From: Cytophagales bacterium Ga0077538
Lineage (GTDB): Bacteria; Bacteroidota; Bacteroidia; Cytophagales; Cyclobacteriaceae
Reading direction: 5' to 3'
Assembly: GCA_001464155.1 (NCBI GenBank)
Contig: LNEN01000219.1
Location: 1 to 53,879 of the forward strand
DNA length: 53,879 nt
Made by a program: the position numbers and the translations under genes
Part shown: positions 44,488 through 52,195 of the stretch, piece by piece
Numbering within the stretch: the first letter of the stretch is position 1
Layout of the letters: each line of letters opens with the position of its first letter
The notes under the pieces: model-generated
Database searches by the model: none
What the model was told of the DNA's origin: nothing
Seen by the model: the letters and a program-made list of their open reading frames with translations, nothing else

Positions 44488-45756
44488 TTAATACAACGGA
44501 AATTTCGTCATCAAACGGTTTACTTTTTTCTTCACCGCTTTCAAGTGTTTGTCATCTGTTGGCTTCTGCAAAGCCTCATCAATCAGTTCAACTACTTTTA
44601 CTACATCTTTCTCCATCATGCCACGTGTTGTAATGGCCGGTGTGCCAATGCGCATACCAGAAGTAACCATTGGTGATTGTGTATCGAAAGGCACCATGTT
44701 TTTGTTGATGGTGATGTCTGCTTTAATAAGGGACTCCTCAGCAATTTTACCAGTCAGGTTTTTGGAACGAAGGTCAATCAACATTAAATGATTGTCGGTG
44801 CCACCAGAAATAATTTTGTATCCACGTTCTACAAAGGCATCGGCCATCGCATTGGCGTTTTTCTTCACTTGCATGATGTACTCAAAGTACTCATCAGAAA
44901 GGGCTTCCTGAAAGGCAATAGCCTTGGCTGCAATCACATGTTCTAACGGACCACCTTGAGTACCTGGGAATACACCAGAGTCAAGCACTGATCCTAGTTT
45001 TCTGATTTCACCTTTAGGGGTTTTTAGTCCGAATGGATTGTCGATGTTCTTACCCACCATAATCAATCCACCACGAGGACCGCGCAAGGTCTTATGCGTT
45101 GTGGTAGTCACAATGTGGCAATGCTCCATGGGGTCGTTCAGCAAACCACGGGCAATCAAACCAGCGGGGTGGGAAATATCAGCTAACAGAACAGCCCCAA
45201 CACTGTTGGCAGCTTCACGTAATTTTTTATAATCCCAATCGCGGCTATAGGCGGAAGCACCACAGATAATCATCTTTGGTTTTTCACGCTGTGCGATTTC
45301 AATAACCTTATTAAAATCGATCAGACCCGTGCTTTGCTCTACTCCGTAAAAAGAGGGCTGATATAATTTTCCTGAAAAGTTTACGGGTGATCCGTGGGTA
45401 AGGTGCCCACCGTGGGAAAGGTCGAAACCTAAAATTTTATCTCCTGGCTTTAAGCAAGCAAGCATCACCGCTGCGTTTGCCTGCGCGCCCGAATGAGGCT
45501 GCACATTGGCCCACTCTGCTCCAAAAAGTTCTTTGGCGCGATCAATGGCCAATTGCTCGATTTCATCTACTACCTCGCATCCACCATAATAGCGCTTGCC
45601 GGGAAGGCCTTCTGCGTATTTGTTGGTGAGAACAGAACCTTGTGCCTTCATCACCTGAGGAGAGGTGAAATTTTCAGAGGCAATCAGTTCGATGCCGTGT
45701 TGCTGGCGATCGTTTTCCTTTTGGATGAGGTCGAAGATGATTTTATCGCGTTTCAT
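44488..45756 (-). CDS. glyA: serine hydroxymethyltransferase
   Basis: GlyA moves the C3 of serine to tetrahydrofolate, giving glycine and methylene-THF. The 422-residue PLP enzyme has '[19 protein letters not shown]', '[20 protein letters not shown]', '[16 protein letters not shown]' and the PLP Lys in '[15 protein letters not shown]' near residue 225. Length and motifs are normal. It is preceded by a good Bacteroidota promoter and followed by a terminator, so it is a single-gene unit. Confidence 0.98.
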
Positions 45757-45892: not shown

Positions 45893-46432
45893 CTAATTGT
45901 CGTCCTCAGTCTTAGCCAACTCCTCATCAATGATCTTCTCAATCACCGCCCGTTGCCGCTCATCAATTTTCTGATCCACCCTGGCCTGTTTCTTCATGAA
46001 ACGAAGCATGGCATTCTTCTTAATTTCGTAGGCGATGAAAACCGTATACTCGTTCTTCTTTTTATCGTAATACTTCTTTTCATCCATCTTCCGAAGGTCA
46101 GCCATATCTGTATTCATGACTTGCCGAACCAAACTTTGAAACTTATCGGCCACATCAGCCGCATTTTCGTTTTCGGTCTGACCGAGGTATTGATCAGCTA
46201 CTTGTTTCATAGTGGTATTTACCTGCCCAGCCAACTGCGCTTTTGCATCAATATCAGCTTTGCCACGGGCAATATTGTCTGCAGAACTCTGTCCTTTACC
46301 AGAAGCGCGCCAAAAACGATTGTTAGATTCATACGCAGAACCTGTAAAAGGCTCTTTTACTTTTTTTCCAAAAATGGAGGCACATCCAGTTGCAAGGAAG
46401 GCCGCAAAAAGAAGGATTACGATTGATTTCAT
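45893..46432 (-). CDS. LPP20-like lipoprotein
   Basis: The 179-residue lipoprotein has the lipobox 'FLATGC' (Cys at 17) and then 'NRFWRASGKGQSSADNIARGKADIDAKAQLAGQVNTTMKQ'. The body has the 'GxGxSxDxxxA...A...A' pattern of LPP20 and related flagellar-independent lipoproteins. The long C-terminal helix is acidic. These proteins are envelope-associated but their role is not settled. It is separate from its neighbours. Confidence 0.75.
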   Translation of the reverse strand: MKSIVILLFAAFLATGCASIFGKKVKEPFTGSAYESNNRFWRASGKGQSSADNIARGKADIDAKAQLAGQVNTTMKQVADQYLGQTENENAADVADKFQSLVRQVMNTDMADLRKMDEKKYYDKKKNEYTVFIAYEIKKNAMLRFMKKQARVDQKIDERQRAVIEKIIDEELAKTEDDN

Positions 46433-46509: not shown

Positions 46510-47214
46510 CTAAATACGAATAATAACTTGCCAACGAAAGGCCCACATCCAGCGGATCGTATAATTTCCAATCCCGGCCTTTTCTAAAATTTCCAATAGC
46601 TCTTTTTTGCGAAATGCTCTGGCTACTGAGAGCGGAGCATCGTGTACAACCATAGGCGATTTGGAGAATAATTGGGTGAGCCATTTGATAGAGTAGTAGG
46701 CAAACCAATGCCGGTGGAGGTCATTGATGACAATGCCAACAGTCACTTGCTTTTTAAGCTGTTCAAAAAAGATCGCCAATTGTTCGGATGAGAAGTGATG
46801 AAAGAAAAGCGTGCTCACCACCACATCGAAATGTTGTTGCTTAAATTCTGGAGAGAAAATATTAATGCTTTGGTAGCGAATGTTGGGTTCTTGCGTATGA
46901 GTCTCTGCGTAGGTAATAATGTTTGGATTCGCATCAAAACCTGTTAATTGTAAGGAATACTTTTTCCGATCACCCCAATCCGCGATAAGCCGTAAAATAT
47001 CGCCACCACCACAACCCAGGTCTGCCACGGTAAAGGTTCTCTCCTTTCCTTCTCCATTCAGGAGTGTATCCAACCCATTCAGCGTAACATAATTTCCTCC
47101 CAACAAGGTGTTAATCGTTTCGAGTTCTTTCAGCGTTTGGCTGATGATGGGACCGGATGACTCCAAGTCATCCATGATTTCTTCTTCTGACGAGCGGTGC
47201 GATAAATCAACCAT
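46510..47214 (-). CDS. class I SAM-dependent methyltransferase of the type III PKS locus
   Basis: The 234-residue protein has the SAM motif 'FTVADLGCGGGDILRLIAD' near residue 61, motif II 'LTGFDANPNIITYAE' and 'FDVVVSTLFFHHFSSEQL'. It is fused in no way but overlaps the polyketide synthase stop by eight bases (ATGGTTGA), so translation is coupled. It probably methylates the polyketide-derived phenol or quinone. A target oxygen or carbon cannot be told. Confidence 0.88.
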   Translation of the reverse strand: MVDLSHRSSEEEIMDDLESSGPIISQTLKELETINTLLGGNYVTLNGLDTLLNGEGKERTFTVADLGCGGGDILRLIADWGDRKKYSLQLTGFDANPNIITYAETHTQEPNIRYQSINIFSPEFKQQHFDVVVSTLFFHHFSSEQLAIFFEQLKKQVTVGIVINDLHRHWFAYYSIKWLTQLFSKSPMVVHDAPLSVARAFRKKELLEILEKAGIGNYTIRWMWAFRWQVIIRI

Positions 47215-48310
47215 GATAGTGATAGGTAAATACTATACTCTCTAACGTAAGTCCCGGACCAAAGGCGAAACTTAAAATGCTTTCTTTGTCATTTTTCTTT
47301 CCAAGCCGGTCAAAAATTTCTTTTAATACGAACAAAACTGTTGGACTCGACATATTTCCATAATTTTTAAGCACGTGATAGGCCCACTCATTTTGTGCTT
47401 TTTGCAAACCAAGCTCCTGCTCAATGGCCTCTAAAATTTTTCTTCCTCCGGGGTGAATCGCCATGTGCTGAATCTCCGCAAGAGAGAGGTTTAGTTTTTT
47501 CAACAATGTGGCCGTGAGCTCCTTTATGCCGCTGCGGATGACATCGGGTACGTAGCTGGAAAGTTTCATTTCGAAACCAACATCGCCAATACTCCAGGCC
47601 ATGTCTTTGTTACCTTGGCGAGCAAGCTCACTATAATAAGTTGAAATGTGAAGGCGATTAGTGGAATGACTCGTTGCTTCTACGATAACGGCAGCAGAGC
47701 CATCGGCAAACAGCGCATTGGCCAGTAAATTATCTTCGGTGTTCTCTTTTTGAAAGTGAAGACTACAGAGTTCTGTACAGACAATTAATACTTTTACGTG
47801 TTCTCCTGTTTTACAAAAAGCATCTGCAGCTTTTAAGGCATTAAAGGCAGCATAGCATCCCATAAAGTTTATATTGGTTCGTTGCACGCTCAAGGGTAGC
47901 TGTAAAGAGTCAACCAAATCAATATCCAACCCGGGGGCATACATGCCCGTGCACGAAACGGTGATAACGTGAGTAATGTCTTTAGCAAGTAATGCGCTTT
48001 GACGAAGCGCTTTAGTGGCAGCTTCAGTACTGAGCAAGGGTGCGTACAATTGAAAGGCTTCGTTTCTTTTTTTAGTAGAAGGAAAGGGAGATAACGTGGA
48101 GGTGTTAGAATAAAAGGTGAAATTTTCAGAACGACCATAATCCTCCAACATGGAGTAACGCGTTTCAATGCCGCTCATTCTAAAAATTGCAGCAAGTTTT
48201 CGCGCATCCTCAGCGCCTAACTGCATACTGCGCAGCATGAAGGTTGCAATGGCCTCCTGTGAAAGTTTGTGAGGAGGGTTTGCTGTGGCAATGGCTGTGA
48301 TGAAACTCAT
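47207..48310 (-). CDS. type III polyketide synthase (chalcone/alkylresorcinol synthase-like)
   Basis: The 367-residue protein is a homodimeric ketosynthase-type enzyme. The catalytic triad is intact: Cys152 in 'NFMGCYAAFNAL', His286 in 'AIHPGGRKILEA' and Asn319 in 'NYGNMSSPTVLFVL'. 'VSCTGMYAPGLDIDLVDSL' precedes the active site. It extends an acyl-CoA starter with malonyl-CoA and cyclises to a resorcinol or pyrone. The starter cannot be read from sequence. It is divergent from the UbiA gene with a 45-base gap. Confidence 0.93.
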   Translation of the reverse strand: MSFITAIATANPPHKLSQEAIATFMLRSMQLGAEDARKLAAIFRMSGIETRYSMLEDYGRSENFTFYSNTSTLSPFPSTKKRNEAFQLYAPLLSTEAATKALRQSALLAKDITHVITVSCTGMYAPGLDIDLVDSLQLPLSVQRTNINFMGCYAAFNALKAADAFCKTGEHVKVLIVCTELCSLHFQKENTEDNLLANALFADGSAAVIVEATSHSTNRLHISTYYSELARQGNKDMAWSIGDVGFEMKLSSYVPDVIRSGIKELTATLLKKLNLSLAEIQHMAIHPGGRKILEAIEQELGLQKAQNEWAYHVLKNYGNMSSPTVLFVLKEIFDRLGKKNDKESILSFAFGPGLTLESIVFTYHYHG

Positions 48311-48318
48311 GGTGATGG

Positions 48319-48349
48319 TTTCTTTATAAGGTCAAATGTTCTAATTTAG
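48319..48349 (+). promoter_or_regulatory. possible promoter of the UbiA gene
   Basis: TTTC, a 19-base spacer and TAATTTAG approximate TTTG-N19-TAnnTTTG with two mismatches. The predicted start lies at or next to the ATG (48356), so the transcript would be leaderless or nearly so. Confidence 0.35.
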
Positions 48350-48355
48350 TCGAAT

Positions 48356-49246
48356 ATGCTTTCAAAGTCTTCGTGGTTGCATTTGCGCATACCCTTTTCA
48401 TACTTCTTGCTTCCTGTTTTTTTATTCTCTCTGAGTGTATCTCCTAACATCAGCGAGCAGCCTTTGTTATGGACTTTCCTGATCATTCACTTTTTATTGT
48501 ATCCGGCCAGCAATGGATTTAACAGCTATTTTGATAAAGATGAGAAAAGCATCGGGGGTTTAAAGAACCCTCCTCCTGTAAATAAAGGACTGTACTACCT
48601 CTCTTTAACGTTTGATGTTGCGGCCATTGTTTTAGCTAGTTGGAAAATATCGATCCCTTTTGCCATGATGTTGGTCGTGTATAGTGCTGTTTCTCGCGCG
48701 TACAGTCATCCCTTGATCCGCCTAAAAAAGTATGCAATTACAAGTTGGTTAGTTGCGGGCTTGTTGCAGGGAGCGTTTACATTTATCATGTGTTATATGG
48801 GGGTAAATAAATATGAGTTTATACAAACGTTAAAACCCTCTATTCTTATCCCTGCATTTTTAACAAGCTTGATGCTTTGGGGCAATTACCCGATGACGCA
48901 AGTCTACCAACACGAAGAGGATGCCAAGCGGGGAGATCAAACCTTAAGTATCAAACTCGGAATTAGAGGAACATTTTGGTTTGTGCTGCTCATGTTTATG
49001 GTAGCCAGTGCAGGCTTTGTGAGCTACTTTTCAACTGTTTTTGGGCTTCACTACGCAACAACATTTTTGTTGGCGCTTGCTCCCGTGGTTTTGTTTTTCT
49101 TGTACTGGTTTTACAGTGTTTACAAAGACGAAAGCAAAGCAAATTATACTAATACAATGTGGCTTAACTTTATTTCGGCCACCTGCCTCAATGGATTTTT
49201 TATCTATCTCTTTTTAAATTCTTCTCACATTTTGGATGCGCTCTAG
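48356..49246 (+). CDS. UbiA-family prenyltransferase
   Basis: The 296-residue membrane protein has eight or nine helices. The two aspartate-rich motifs are recognisable: 'NGFNSYFDKDEKSIGG' near residue 55 (N-x-x-x-D-x-D, a variant of NDxxD) and 'YQHEEDAKRGDQTLSIKLG' near 185 (DxxxD). It should bind a prenyl diphosphate through Mg and add the prenyl chain to an aromatic acceptor. Given the neighbours, the acceptor could be the type III PKS product. It is transcribed away from the PKS and convergent with the FAD gene. Confidence 0.88.
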   Translation: MLSKSSWLHLRIPFSYFLLPVFLFSLSVSPNISEQPLLWTFLIIHFLLYPASNGFNSYFDKDEKSIGGLKNPPPVNKGLYYLSLTFDVAAIVLASWKISIPFAMMLVVYSAVSRAYSHPLIRLKKYAITSWLVAGLLQGAFTFIMCYMGVNKYEFIQTLKPSILIPAFLTSLMLWGNYPMTQVYQHEEDAKRGDQTLSIKLGIRGTFWFVLLMFMVASAGFVSYFSTVFGLHYATTFLLALAPVVLFFLYWFYSVYKDESKANYTNTMWLNFISATCLNGFFIYLFLNSSHILDAL

Positions 49247-49277
49247 CAAACGATCAGCCTCCTGAGAGGTGCATATT

Positions 49278-50355
49278 TTAAAAAGGCTTGCCATGGGTGC
49301 TCTTCACAATGGTTTGAGCTATCGGTTTTGAATAAAGCGCTAGCCGAACCGCTACCTGAGAGGCAAGAGAACTTCCGAACAATCGTTGAACCTGCCGCCC
49401 GAACCACAAACGGCTCGCAAAATTTTTTCGCCACTCTCGGGCATAATCATGTTCCAGCTGAGCTCTGGTGTAAGAAGCATCACTACAAAATCGAATAAGT
49501 AGGAAGCTAACAATTTTGGAAGAATGAATAGCGATGGCCATACCATTGCCACACAAGGGAGTAATCATTCCTGCGGCATCACCTGTCATTAATACATGGT
49601 TGAAAACCGGCTCTTTTGTTTCAAAACTAATTTCATTAATAACCTCAGGTTTGTCAAAAAGAAAATCGCTGTGTTCAAAAACTTCTTTCAATAACGGATT
49701 TTTACAGAGCACCCTTTTTTCTAGTTCGGGAATGCTACCATGCTGACGAAGAACATCTCGATGAGTGAGGTAACAGACGTTTACAACATCCTTTTCTACG
49801 GCATTCACACCACAATAACCACCTTTGAAGTTATGAAGCGCTACTAAATCATTCGGAAAATCACTTCGCACATGGTACTTAACCCCTACATAGGGCGATC
49901 GCTTCTTCAAAAAACTTCTTTGTAAGGACACATCTGCTTTAGAGCGCTTTCCAAAACTACCAATCACAAGGTCAGCCGAAAGTGTTGAGCCGGAGGCATG
50001 AATGGTGAACTGCTCGTTCTCGAAAAAAATATCGCTTACTTCAGTATTGAGTAAAAACTGAACACCGCAATTTTTTGCTTTTTCGAAAAGAAAATGGTCG
50101 AACGCATAGCGACTAATGCCAAAGCCTCCCAAATCCAATGGAAGTACAGTCGATTTTCCTCCCACCGATGAAAGCTGAAAGCGATGGATGGTAGAAGGAG
50201 ATAGTGCTTCAGGAAAAAGTTGAAGGGAGTTTAAGAAGAAAAGGATAATTTTTTTTCTCGATAACAATACAGGGCAAACCAGCTTTTTGAAGCTGTATGG
50301 CACATAGAAGACCAGCTAAACCACCTCCGACAATGATAATCGACTTTGTTTTCAC
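49278..50355 (-). pseudogene. FAD-dependent oxidoreductase (geranylgeranyl reductase-like), frame broken by an internal deletion
   Basis: The start is GTG (50355) or TTG. The N-terminal frame reads 'VKTKSIIIVGGGLAGLLCAI' (FAD-binding GxGxxG), 'LPCIVIEKKNYPF', then leaves the family. From about 50235 another frame reads 'LNSLQLFPEALSPSTIHRFQ' and 'GGFGISRYAFDHFLFEKAKN' to the end, including 'VLMTGDAAGMITPLCGNGMAIAIHSSK'. About 15 residues (the HRVCGEY... segment expected after 'YPF') are missing at about 50235, so roughly 45-50 bases are absent and the frame shifts. The ORF track covers only 49278-50303. It may hydroxylate or reduce the prenylated polyketide. It would be inactive if the deletion is real. 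Confidence 0.82.
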
Positions 50356-50485: not shown

Positions 50486-50962
50486 ATGAATACCCTTGTT
50501 GAACCCGTGCTGAGGCAGGAGCAGCTAAATGTGCTTGTGGTGGGCAATAATCCCATCGAGTTAAGTTCGATGTTAAACAAAATTGGACATCTTCCTGGCC
50601 GCATTATTCATACAGAGACAGCCTTTGATGCCCGTAGCATTATTGATCGCTTGTTGCGCTTCCGTCCTAATTTTATCTTAATAGACGACAACATTGGCCA
50701 GCTGGAATTGAATCATACTGTGTATGTTCTGGCACGCAATCGAAAAACCAAGAACGTTCCCATTACCGTGTTGAAAAATTCTAACTATACGGAAGCCAGT
50801 GCGTCTCCTTCCGTGATGGATTATATTTTGAAGGGGACCCTGACAGCGGAAGCGTTGTATGCCAGTATTCGTAACAGCATAAAAGTCAGAAGAACGCAAG
50901 TCTATTTAATGAAGGCGTATAAAAAGCGAAAAGGACTTTTGTTGGGTCTAATGAACAAGTAG
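50486..50962 (+). CDS. stand-alone receiver-domain protein
   Basis: The 158-residue product is a single receiver-like domain ('LNVLVVGNNPIELSSMLNKIG', 'RPNFILIDDNIGQLELNHTV', 'SVMDYILKGTLTAEALYASIRN'). The phospho-Asp is in 'LIDDN' and the conserved Lys is in 'ILKG', but the acidic pair after beta-1 is replaced by 'GNNP', so Mg binding and phosphorylation may be weak. There is no output domain. The basic C-terminal tail ('MKAYKKRKGLLLG') may bind a partner. No kinase lies next to it. Confidence 0.72.
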   Translation: MNTLVEPVLRQEQLNVLVVGNNPIELSSMLNKIGHLPGRIIHTETAFDARSIIDRLLRFRPNFILIDDNIGQLELNHTVYVLARNRKTKNVPITVLKNSNYTEASASPSVMDYILKGTLTAEALYASIRNSIKVRRTQVYLMKAYKKRKGLLLGLMNK

Positions 50963-52195
50963 TTACAACGTGTTTTTCAACACCATTTTCACATTCAACA
51001 CGGCATTATTTCGCTTAATATTTATGTTAACTTTTTTTCCGGGTCTTTCATTGAGCAACCCGTTCAGTTGATTGAGGTTTACATCGGAAGCCTTCACTCC
51101 ATTTACGCTTAGTATCTGGTCCCCCACCTGTACACCCGCATTATCAGCCGTAGAAAATTTGCGAACATCCGTTACTTCAAATGAATTGAGCAGATTCCCC
51201 TTCGCACGCAGGGTTAGTCCACTTAGATTGTAATAAAATCCTTTCTTAAAATCACCATTTTTCTTTAAGTATAACTCTTCTCTGGAAAAATTATAGATCA
51301 CGGTAAAGCGACTCAATATTTCTCCTCCTAAAGTACCATTGCGAAAGGTTTGCCCAAGCTTCAGGGTATCCACGTAACTATTAGGATCCGGATAATTAAC
51401 CAATACATCTTCGAGCGTGTAGCTACCAAGACTAAGTTCTTTTAAACGTCCACTTTTACCTCTGATCTCCCCACCCAGCCCACGTCCTACAGTACAACTT
51501 ACTGCATTGGTGGGCACATCTAGTGTGGAATCCGAAGCAGGATCCAGTAACATACTATGACTAGCGCCTGAATCGACTAATAACTTCAATCGCTTCTTTT
51601 CTCCATTCGTCTGTTTGATGTCGGCCATGATATAAGGCTTGGTGTCTTCGATGCTAAGGGGTACGGTTTTATATTTTCTAGACAAGCGAAGCTTCTCAGG
51701 AATCATCAGGGTCATTATTTTTTCTTTGTAATTGACCTTTACGATAAAACGGCTGAACAACTCATAACCCAAAACGCCATGCACATCGGTGCCTAGGTAA
51801 TTGCGCAGTTCAAGGTAATCTTCCCCCAATACTAGTAAGGCATGTCCATGGCCATCCACACCCGGTAGTTGTAGGTCAACACCATTGGTTACGTATGCTT
51901 CAATAATGTTGATACCGCCCGGACCGGCTACTGAATATTTTCGTGAATAAGAAAGATTGAGGATATCAGTATAGGTTTTCTCTGTGAGAATGGCCGTTCG
52001 AACCCCCGTATCAACAATAAACTTTAACGGAAGCGCACCATTTAATAGCACGGGTACCACCACCAGATTGTTGTGAATTTCAATGGGTATATCAACACGT
52101 TTGCGACCATCGGACAAGGAAAAGCCGAGGGTTTGTGCCATGCCATTAAAAGCAATAAACAAGAGGATAAAAACAAAAAATAACCGTACAAACAT
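50963..52195 (-). CDS. exported retropepsin-like aspartyl protease with PDZ domain
   Basis: A signal peptide ('LFFVFILLFIAFNGMAQ') precedes two pepsin-like halves. The active-site motifs are 'LKFIVDTGVRTAILTEKT' near residue 57 and 'LKLLVDSGASHSMLLDPA' near 205. A PDZ domain covers about 320-405 ('TADNAGVQVGDQILSVNGVKASDVNLNQLNGLL'). This architecture is a common Bacteroidota secreted protein group. The substrate is unknown, and one DTG (DTGV) departs from the usual DTGA/S. It ends directly at the receiver gene, convergent. Confidence 0.85.
   Translation of the reverse strand: MFVRLFFVFILLFIAFNGMAQTLGFSLSDGRKRVDIPIEIHNNLVVVPVLLNGALPLKFIVDTGVRTAILTEKTYTDILNLSYSRKYSVAGPGGINIIEAYVTNGVDLQLPGVDGHGHALLVLGEDYLELRNYLGTDVHGVLGYELFSRFIVKVNYKEKIMTLMIPEKLRLSRKYKTVPLSIEDTKPYIMADIKQTNGEKKRLKLLVDSGASHSMLLDPASDSTLDVPTNAVSCTVGRGLGGEIRGKSGRLKELSLGSYTLEDVLVNYPDPNSYVDTLKLGQTFRNGTLGGEILSRFTVIYNFSREELYLKKNGDFKKGFYYNLSGLTLRAKGNLLNSFEVTDVRKFSTADNAGVQVGDQILSVNGVKASDVNLNQLNGLLNERPGKKVNINIKRNNAVLNVKMVLKNTL

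Follow-up and report, generated by a model that had tools for sequence, protein, structure and literature searches.

A stretch of DNA from Cytophagales bacterium Ga0077538 (contig LNEN01000219.1, positions 1 to 53,879; hereafter, the window, 53,879 nucleotides) carries four neighbouring genes within 46510-50355, recognised from their open reading frames (ORFs) and from Pfam and NCBIfam models, for a methyltransferase, a type III polyketide synthase (PKS), a UbiA-fold membrane protein and a flavin adenine dinucleotide (FAD)-dependent oxidoreductase. On balance, this four-gene set probably makes a prenylated, methylated and oxidised phenolic lipid or quinone. The type III PKS would use malonyl-CoA and an acyl starter to build a small ring, with a phenol (an alkylresorcinol or resorcylate, for example) as the likeliest type; the methyltransferase would methylate and the FAD oxidoreductase would oxidise (hydroxylate) this ring, and the UbiA-fold membrane enzyme would attach an isoprenoid chain, so that the prenylated phenolic lipid or quinone would be soluble in membranes. 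We infer this chemistry, the order of its steps and the prenylation, whereas the gene families, the PKS catalytic triad, the co-inheritance of the genes, the fold of the UbiA-like protein and a break in the FAD gene are read from the analyses described below. The four enzyme types that an earlier note on this DNA had seen packed into the locus were indeed recovered there, each above its curated Pfam cut-off (27 for both Chal_sti_synt_N and Chal_sti_synt_C, 34.2 for UbiA, 27 for Methyltransf_25 and 22 for FAD_binding_3) except for the FAD fragment.

Co-inheritance of the four genes

The earlier note had staked its grouping on the four genes being co-conserved across relatives, and this is what was found. 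In a sample of 198 genomes of the Bacteroidota class, 36 carry both the UbiA subfamily and the PKS clade, 2 carry just one of them (UbiA alone in 1, PKS alone in 1) and 160 carry neither (Fisher p 3e-37), on counts that are not fully corrected for relatedness, which weighs against the proposed pathway together with the points gathered in the next section. The UbiA-only genome holds the weakest UbiA match, and the PKS-only genome is 72% complete. The UbiA and PKS genes lie within 2.5 kb of each other in 32 of the 36 pairs, with a median gap of 18 bases. The FAD family was found in 42 genomes of the same sample and the methyltransferase family in 43, all of which also hold a type III PKS (42/42, p 9e-39, and 43/43, the latter from genome lists compared by reading). 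In 80 named loci, drawn from other Bacteroidota plus a few further records, the genes most often found around the PKS encode the methyltransferase (60), the FAD enzyme (55) and UbiA (50), the next family reaching at most 13; no fifth gene is comparably conserved, which rules out a larger cluster with acyl carrier protein (ACP), ketosynthase (KS) or transport genes in these loci. Chance proximity of the four genes is ruled out by the co-inheritance counts.

Gene order varies between families. In most PKS-bearing genomes of the family that includes the window genome, it is MT< PKS< UbiA> FAD< (MT, methyltransferase), and in Chitinophagaceae UbiA>PKS>MT>FAD> on a single strand; Sphingobacteriaceae have UbiA< PKS>, then the methyltransferase and FAD genes, and Hymenobacteraceae have FAD> PKS> MT> with UbiA elsewhere in the genome (15/15 cases checked). 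UbiA is missing from 13/13 family members that have no PKS, and at least six families, among the genomes listed, hold both states, the two genes moving as a pair. When presence of UbiA is mapped as a label onto the PKS tree, 3 changes are needed vs 24 in shuffles, which makes the UbiA-PKS link an old one that was lost a few times. Across 66 loci, the four proteins give distance matrices with correlations of 0.74-0.81, part of which may stem from common species history and to that extent tells against the proposed pathway as well. Bacteroidota-type four-gene sets also appear on records titled Rickettsiales, Candidatus Anammoxibacter and Sericytochromatia (L092, L101, L141), which are likely misbinned contigs or transfers.

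The PKS, methyltransferase and FAD genes also form a trio that lacks UbiA in Psychrobacter, Deinococcus radiodurans, Paludisphaera and Legionella gratiana, and in Novosphingobium they lie alongside ACP and KS genes (L195, L196, L197, L198, L111); the Deinococcus FAD enzyme matches the family of the window weakly. Since this widespread trio recurs without UbiA outside the phylum, the best view is that UbiA was added to it in Bacteroidota. Within the class, 9 genomes hold a distant type III PKS, with UbiA in 0/9, the FAD family in 8/9 and the methyltransferase family in several. This second, more distant PKS, paired with FAD and methyltransferase relatives but never with UbiA, was seen in L164 (G165), G083, G087, G115, G142, G200 and G233.

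Several described systems resemble the set in gene composition. One is srsABC of Streptomyces griseus, which makes phenolic lipid quinones and has, to our knowledge, no UbiA gene. The earlier note had likened the locus to srsABC with a UbiA added; this holds for the functional composition (type III PKS, methyltransferase and FAD enzyme, co-inherited here) and for the co-inheritance of UbiA, but needs qualifying for the disrupted FAD gene of the window and for the non-canonical UbiA motifs. Another example is the hidABC hierridin clusters of cyanobacteria, in which methyltransferase, oxidoreductase and type III PKS genes are likewise compactly clustered and one cluster, from Raphidiopsis, adds a prenyltransferase (PMC8086630), a single exception there, whereas here UbiA accompanies the PKS clade in almost every genome. 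Similarly, in the three-gene pks10 operon of M. smegmatis, in another phylum and with UbiA unmentioned, alkylresorcinols made by the PKS are O-methylated and then oxidised to quinones (PMC5916927), so that the same functions are combined. The Myxococcota alkylpyrone cluster BGC0001831, compared by description, is also a type III PKS cluster widely conserved in a phylum, its ecological role being unknown; UbiA is unmentioned in its case (PMC12766979). The best reading is that the Bacteroidota set elaborates srs-, hid- and pks10-type clusters.

The UbiA-fold protein and the case for prenylation

The UbiA-like protein scores 71.4 bits against the UbiA Pfam domain, and its AlphaFold model (predicted local distance difference test, pLDDT, 94) has AfUbiA (4tq4) as its top Foldseek match, with probability 1.00 and a template modelling (TM) score of 0.65. 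The modelled protein has the UbiA fold and is nearest to A. fulgidus UbiA bound to dimethylallyl diphosphate (DMAPP). Its conserved columns read N56-x3-D60-x-D62, Q182-x2-Q185-x3-D189, Y116-S117 and R11. The residues of AfUbiA that bind Mg or diphosphate, or act in the reaction, are R22, N68, D72, D202, Y139 and S140 (PMC4106721), and all of them have conserved counterparts in the window protein by alignment and spacing (R11, N56, D60, D189, Y116 and S117).

The remaining points against the proposed pathway concern, first of all, the motifs of this protein. The canonical NDxxDxxxD of motif 1 is altered, N56-x3-D60 being retained and the third Asp gone, with an invariant D62 instead; the canonical DxxxD of motif 2 is replaced by Q185-x3-D189 in all PKS-linked relatives aligned, with Gln182 as a second invariant Gln. 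Mutation of the D198 and D202 counterparts in E. coli MenA left it with no function or almost none (PMC4106721). None of the NCBIfam prenyltransferase equivalogs (MenA, BchG, DGGGP synthase and others) reaches its cut-off on the window UbiA, the best named score being 33.5 bits vs 212 required (BchG). Starter and ring type (resorcinol vs pyrone) are not readable from the PKS sequence, and the superfamily of the FAD enzyme also includes reductases and halogenases. Finally, the earlier note knew of no characterised Bacteroidota product from exactly this set, and a search of the open-access literature likewise returned no product paper, nor any paper on a UbiA gene adjoining a PKS gene in Bacteroidota.

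These motif changes, shared by all linked relatives aligned, lend themselves to another explanation, in which the pathway leads to a simple phenolic lipid or to an alkylpyrone that the UbiA-like protein does not prenylate, catalysing instead another isoprenoid reaction (e.g., cyclisation) or using another substrate. The occurrence of the PKS-methyltransferase-FAD trio without UbiA in other taxa fits this explanation, as do UbiA genes from one flavobacterial family (L181, L182) that bear a closely similar motif and are not linked to the PKS. We nevertheless consider it rather unlikely, given that the remaining Mg- and diphosphate-binding residues are kept and that co-inheritance of UbiA with the PKS is nearly perfect. 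Additionally, chlorophyll synthase BchG, though in a prenyltransferase family, is also without Asp at the motif 2 spacing in our alignment; because of this similar absence, the change to Gln185 does not rule out prenyl transfer. UbiA genes with in-frame TAA stops occur in a few draft genomes (G307, G321, G362, G394), reflecting either decay or sequencing errors.

Proximity of the genes has to be read with similar care. In Micromonospora endolithica, the type III PKS gene of the losA region has a methyltransferase gene and a gene of the UbiA prenyltransferase family as neighbours, as in the Bacteroidota set, with an acyl-CoA dehydrogenase there vs the FAD enzyme here; the loseolamycins solved from it, obtained with a strong promoter placed before losA, are unprenylated alkylresorcinols (PMC7587189), and adjacency alone therefore does not show prenylation. 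A bolder form of the prenylated product, which we regard as unlikely, is a prenylated polyketide quinone of a new class, whose ring would come from the type III PKS and not from chorismate, whose isoprenoid chain would be added by a UbiA with the Gln motif, and which would serve as an accessory lipoquinone spread across environmental Bacteroidota.

Putative ring-forming and ring-modifying enzymes

The PKS scores 95.8 bits for Chal_sti_synt_N and 87.5 bits for Chal_sti_synt_C, its catalytic triad C152, H286 and N319 is intact and unvarying across 20 relatives, and its relatives in the PDB include Steely1, PKS18 and chalcone synthases. Resorcinol-forming type III PKSs share a conserved Trp (PMC5916927), which by spacing could correspond to either F246 or W239 of the window PKS. 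The methyltransferase scores 51.7 bits for Methyltransf_25 and 143 bits for NF004851, under the NCBIfam cut-off of 243.

Intact relatives of the FAD enzyme sit in the superfamily of geranylgeranyl (GG) reductases, halogenases and aromatic hydroxylases. The best NCBIfam model for one of them (L071) is TIGR02032, geranylgeranyl reductase, at 94 bits, under the 158.8 cut-off, and structure comparison of modelled intact relatives returned the flavin halogenases ChlB4 and PltA as well as 3-hydroxybenzoate 6-hydroxylase, in keeping with the proposed pathway. Next to a PKS and a methyltransferase, the natural guess is that the FAD enzyme would perform ring hydroxylation or oxidation. A named GG reductase was rejected on the TIGR02032 score and on the missing YxWxFP motif of that family, the region reading GYCGV; a halogenase was rejected because the halogenase motif WxWxIP is absent from the same region.

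The methyltransferase is weakly similar to UbiG/UbiE and the FAD enzyme to UbiH-type hydroxylases, and both lie in a set with an adjoining UbiA. This allows the locus to be read as a PKS-headed counterpart of ubiquinone biosynthesis, in which UbiA would attach a long prenyl chain to a small PKS-made aromatic, and hydroxylation and methylation would then yield a redox-active lipoquinone. Type III PKS quinones do act in mycobacterial electron transport (PMC5916927), and the distribution of the set is wide though patchy. However, the UbiG, UbiE and UbiH similarities are at superfamily level and under curated cut-offs, several other described bacterial type III PKSs take long acyl starters, and the window genome encodes further UbiA homologues that presumably serve menaquinone and haem O synthesis; such a counterpart is distinctly unlikely, and a prenylated phenolic lipid or quinone built on a PKS-made ring remains the preferred product.

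The FAD gene of the window had been taken as intact up to 50355 in the earlier note, which does not hold: it lies in two frames, with an out-of-frame 41-bp deletion relative to four same-genus species. The first frame, from a GTG at 50355, reads VKTKSIIIVGGGLAGLLCAIQLQKAGLPCIVIEKKNYPF followed by LLKLPSTFS, contains the GxGxxG motif and stops near 50209; the remainder is in another frame, its first conserved part being FLNSLQLFPEAL. The gap falls just after YPF, where all relatives (four genus mates and one more distant) have HRVCGEYISNEVxP, and the conserved HRVCGEYISNEV segment is thereby lost. A search of the window genome found no second FAD copy and returned the N-terminal fragment as a separate piece. 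The FAD_binding_3 score of the window fragment (19.5 vs 41.5 in L071) is below the cut-off because the fragment is incomplete. The split gene is a pseudogene or an assembly error, the latter being possible because the genome is a draft assembly of 323 contigs. The frameshift in a conserved segment, with no second copy, could mean that the locus is decaying in this genome, with FAD lost and the others perhaps to follow, which would be compatible with the proposed pathway in intact sets. Such decay is possible, though doubtful: the 341 FAD codons that remain form an open frame with 65% identity to a genus mate, the other three genes are intact, at 72-81% identity, and an assembly error is possible. 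Unless the deletion is such an error, this genome would fail to make the oxidised end product.

Layout of the locus and its meaning

The features of the locus are collected in Table 1. The methyltransferase and PKS genes overlap by 8 bases and are probably translationally coupled, the UbiA gene is transcribed away from the PKS gene, and the FAD gene converges on the UbiA gene. The PKS-UbiA gap is likewise short in genus mates, with a CCTAATTTAG block in L021 and L178. The gap of the window showed no match to the consensus Bacteroidota promoter motif. The locus is flanked by genes for GlyA (44488-45756), a 179-aa lipoprotein-like ORF (45893-46432), a response-regulator-like ORF (50486-50962) and a PDZ-domain aspartyl protease (50963-52195). 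The flanking genes hold their position in close relatives, and the locus is thus in a stable chromosomal neighbourhood. A horizontally mobile element was ruled out by the same GlyA-to-PDZ-protease flanks in the closest genus mate, and a search of plasmid records with the window UbiA returned zero relatives.

Table 1. Features of the four-gene locus, in window coordinates
Feature	Position	Strand	Evidence
Class I S-adenosylmethionine (SAM) methyltransferase, PRK06202-like	46510..47214	-	Pfam Methyltransf_25; NCBIfam NF004851 below cut-off
Type III polyketide synthase, Cys152-His286-Asn319	47207..48310	-	Pfam Chal_sti_synt_N/C; triad; PDB relatives
Divergent intergenic gap, PKS start to UbiA start, 45 bases	48311..48355		
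UbiA-fold membrane prenyltransferase-like protein, variant motifs	48356..49246	+	Pfam UbiA; conserved columns; AlphaFold; Foldseek
FAD-dependent oxidoreductase, larger C-terminal fragment, out of frame with its start	49278..50303	-	Intact relatives compared
FAD gene N-terminal fragment, GxGxxG Rossmann motif, premature stop after deletion	50209..50355	-	
41-base deletion junction vs four genus mates	50236..50241	-	Nucleotide alignment

Roughly one in five of the class genomes sampled carries the pathway, and no product has been assigned to it in the open-access papers found; the near-perfect co-inheritance of its genes makes the product question directly testable. It also brings to light a UbiA clade whose metal motif is unusual and for which an acceptor substrate can be predicted, and it exemplifies the addition of an extra enzyme to a trio that occurs in other phyla.

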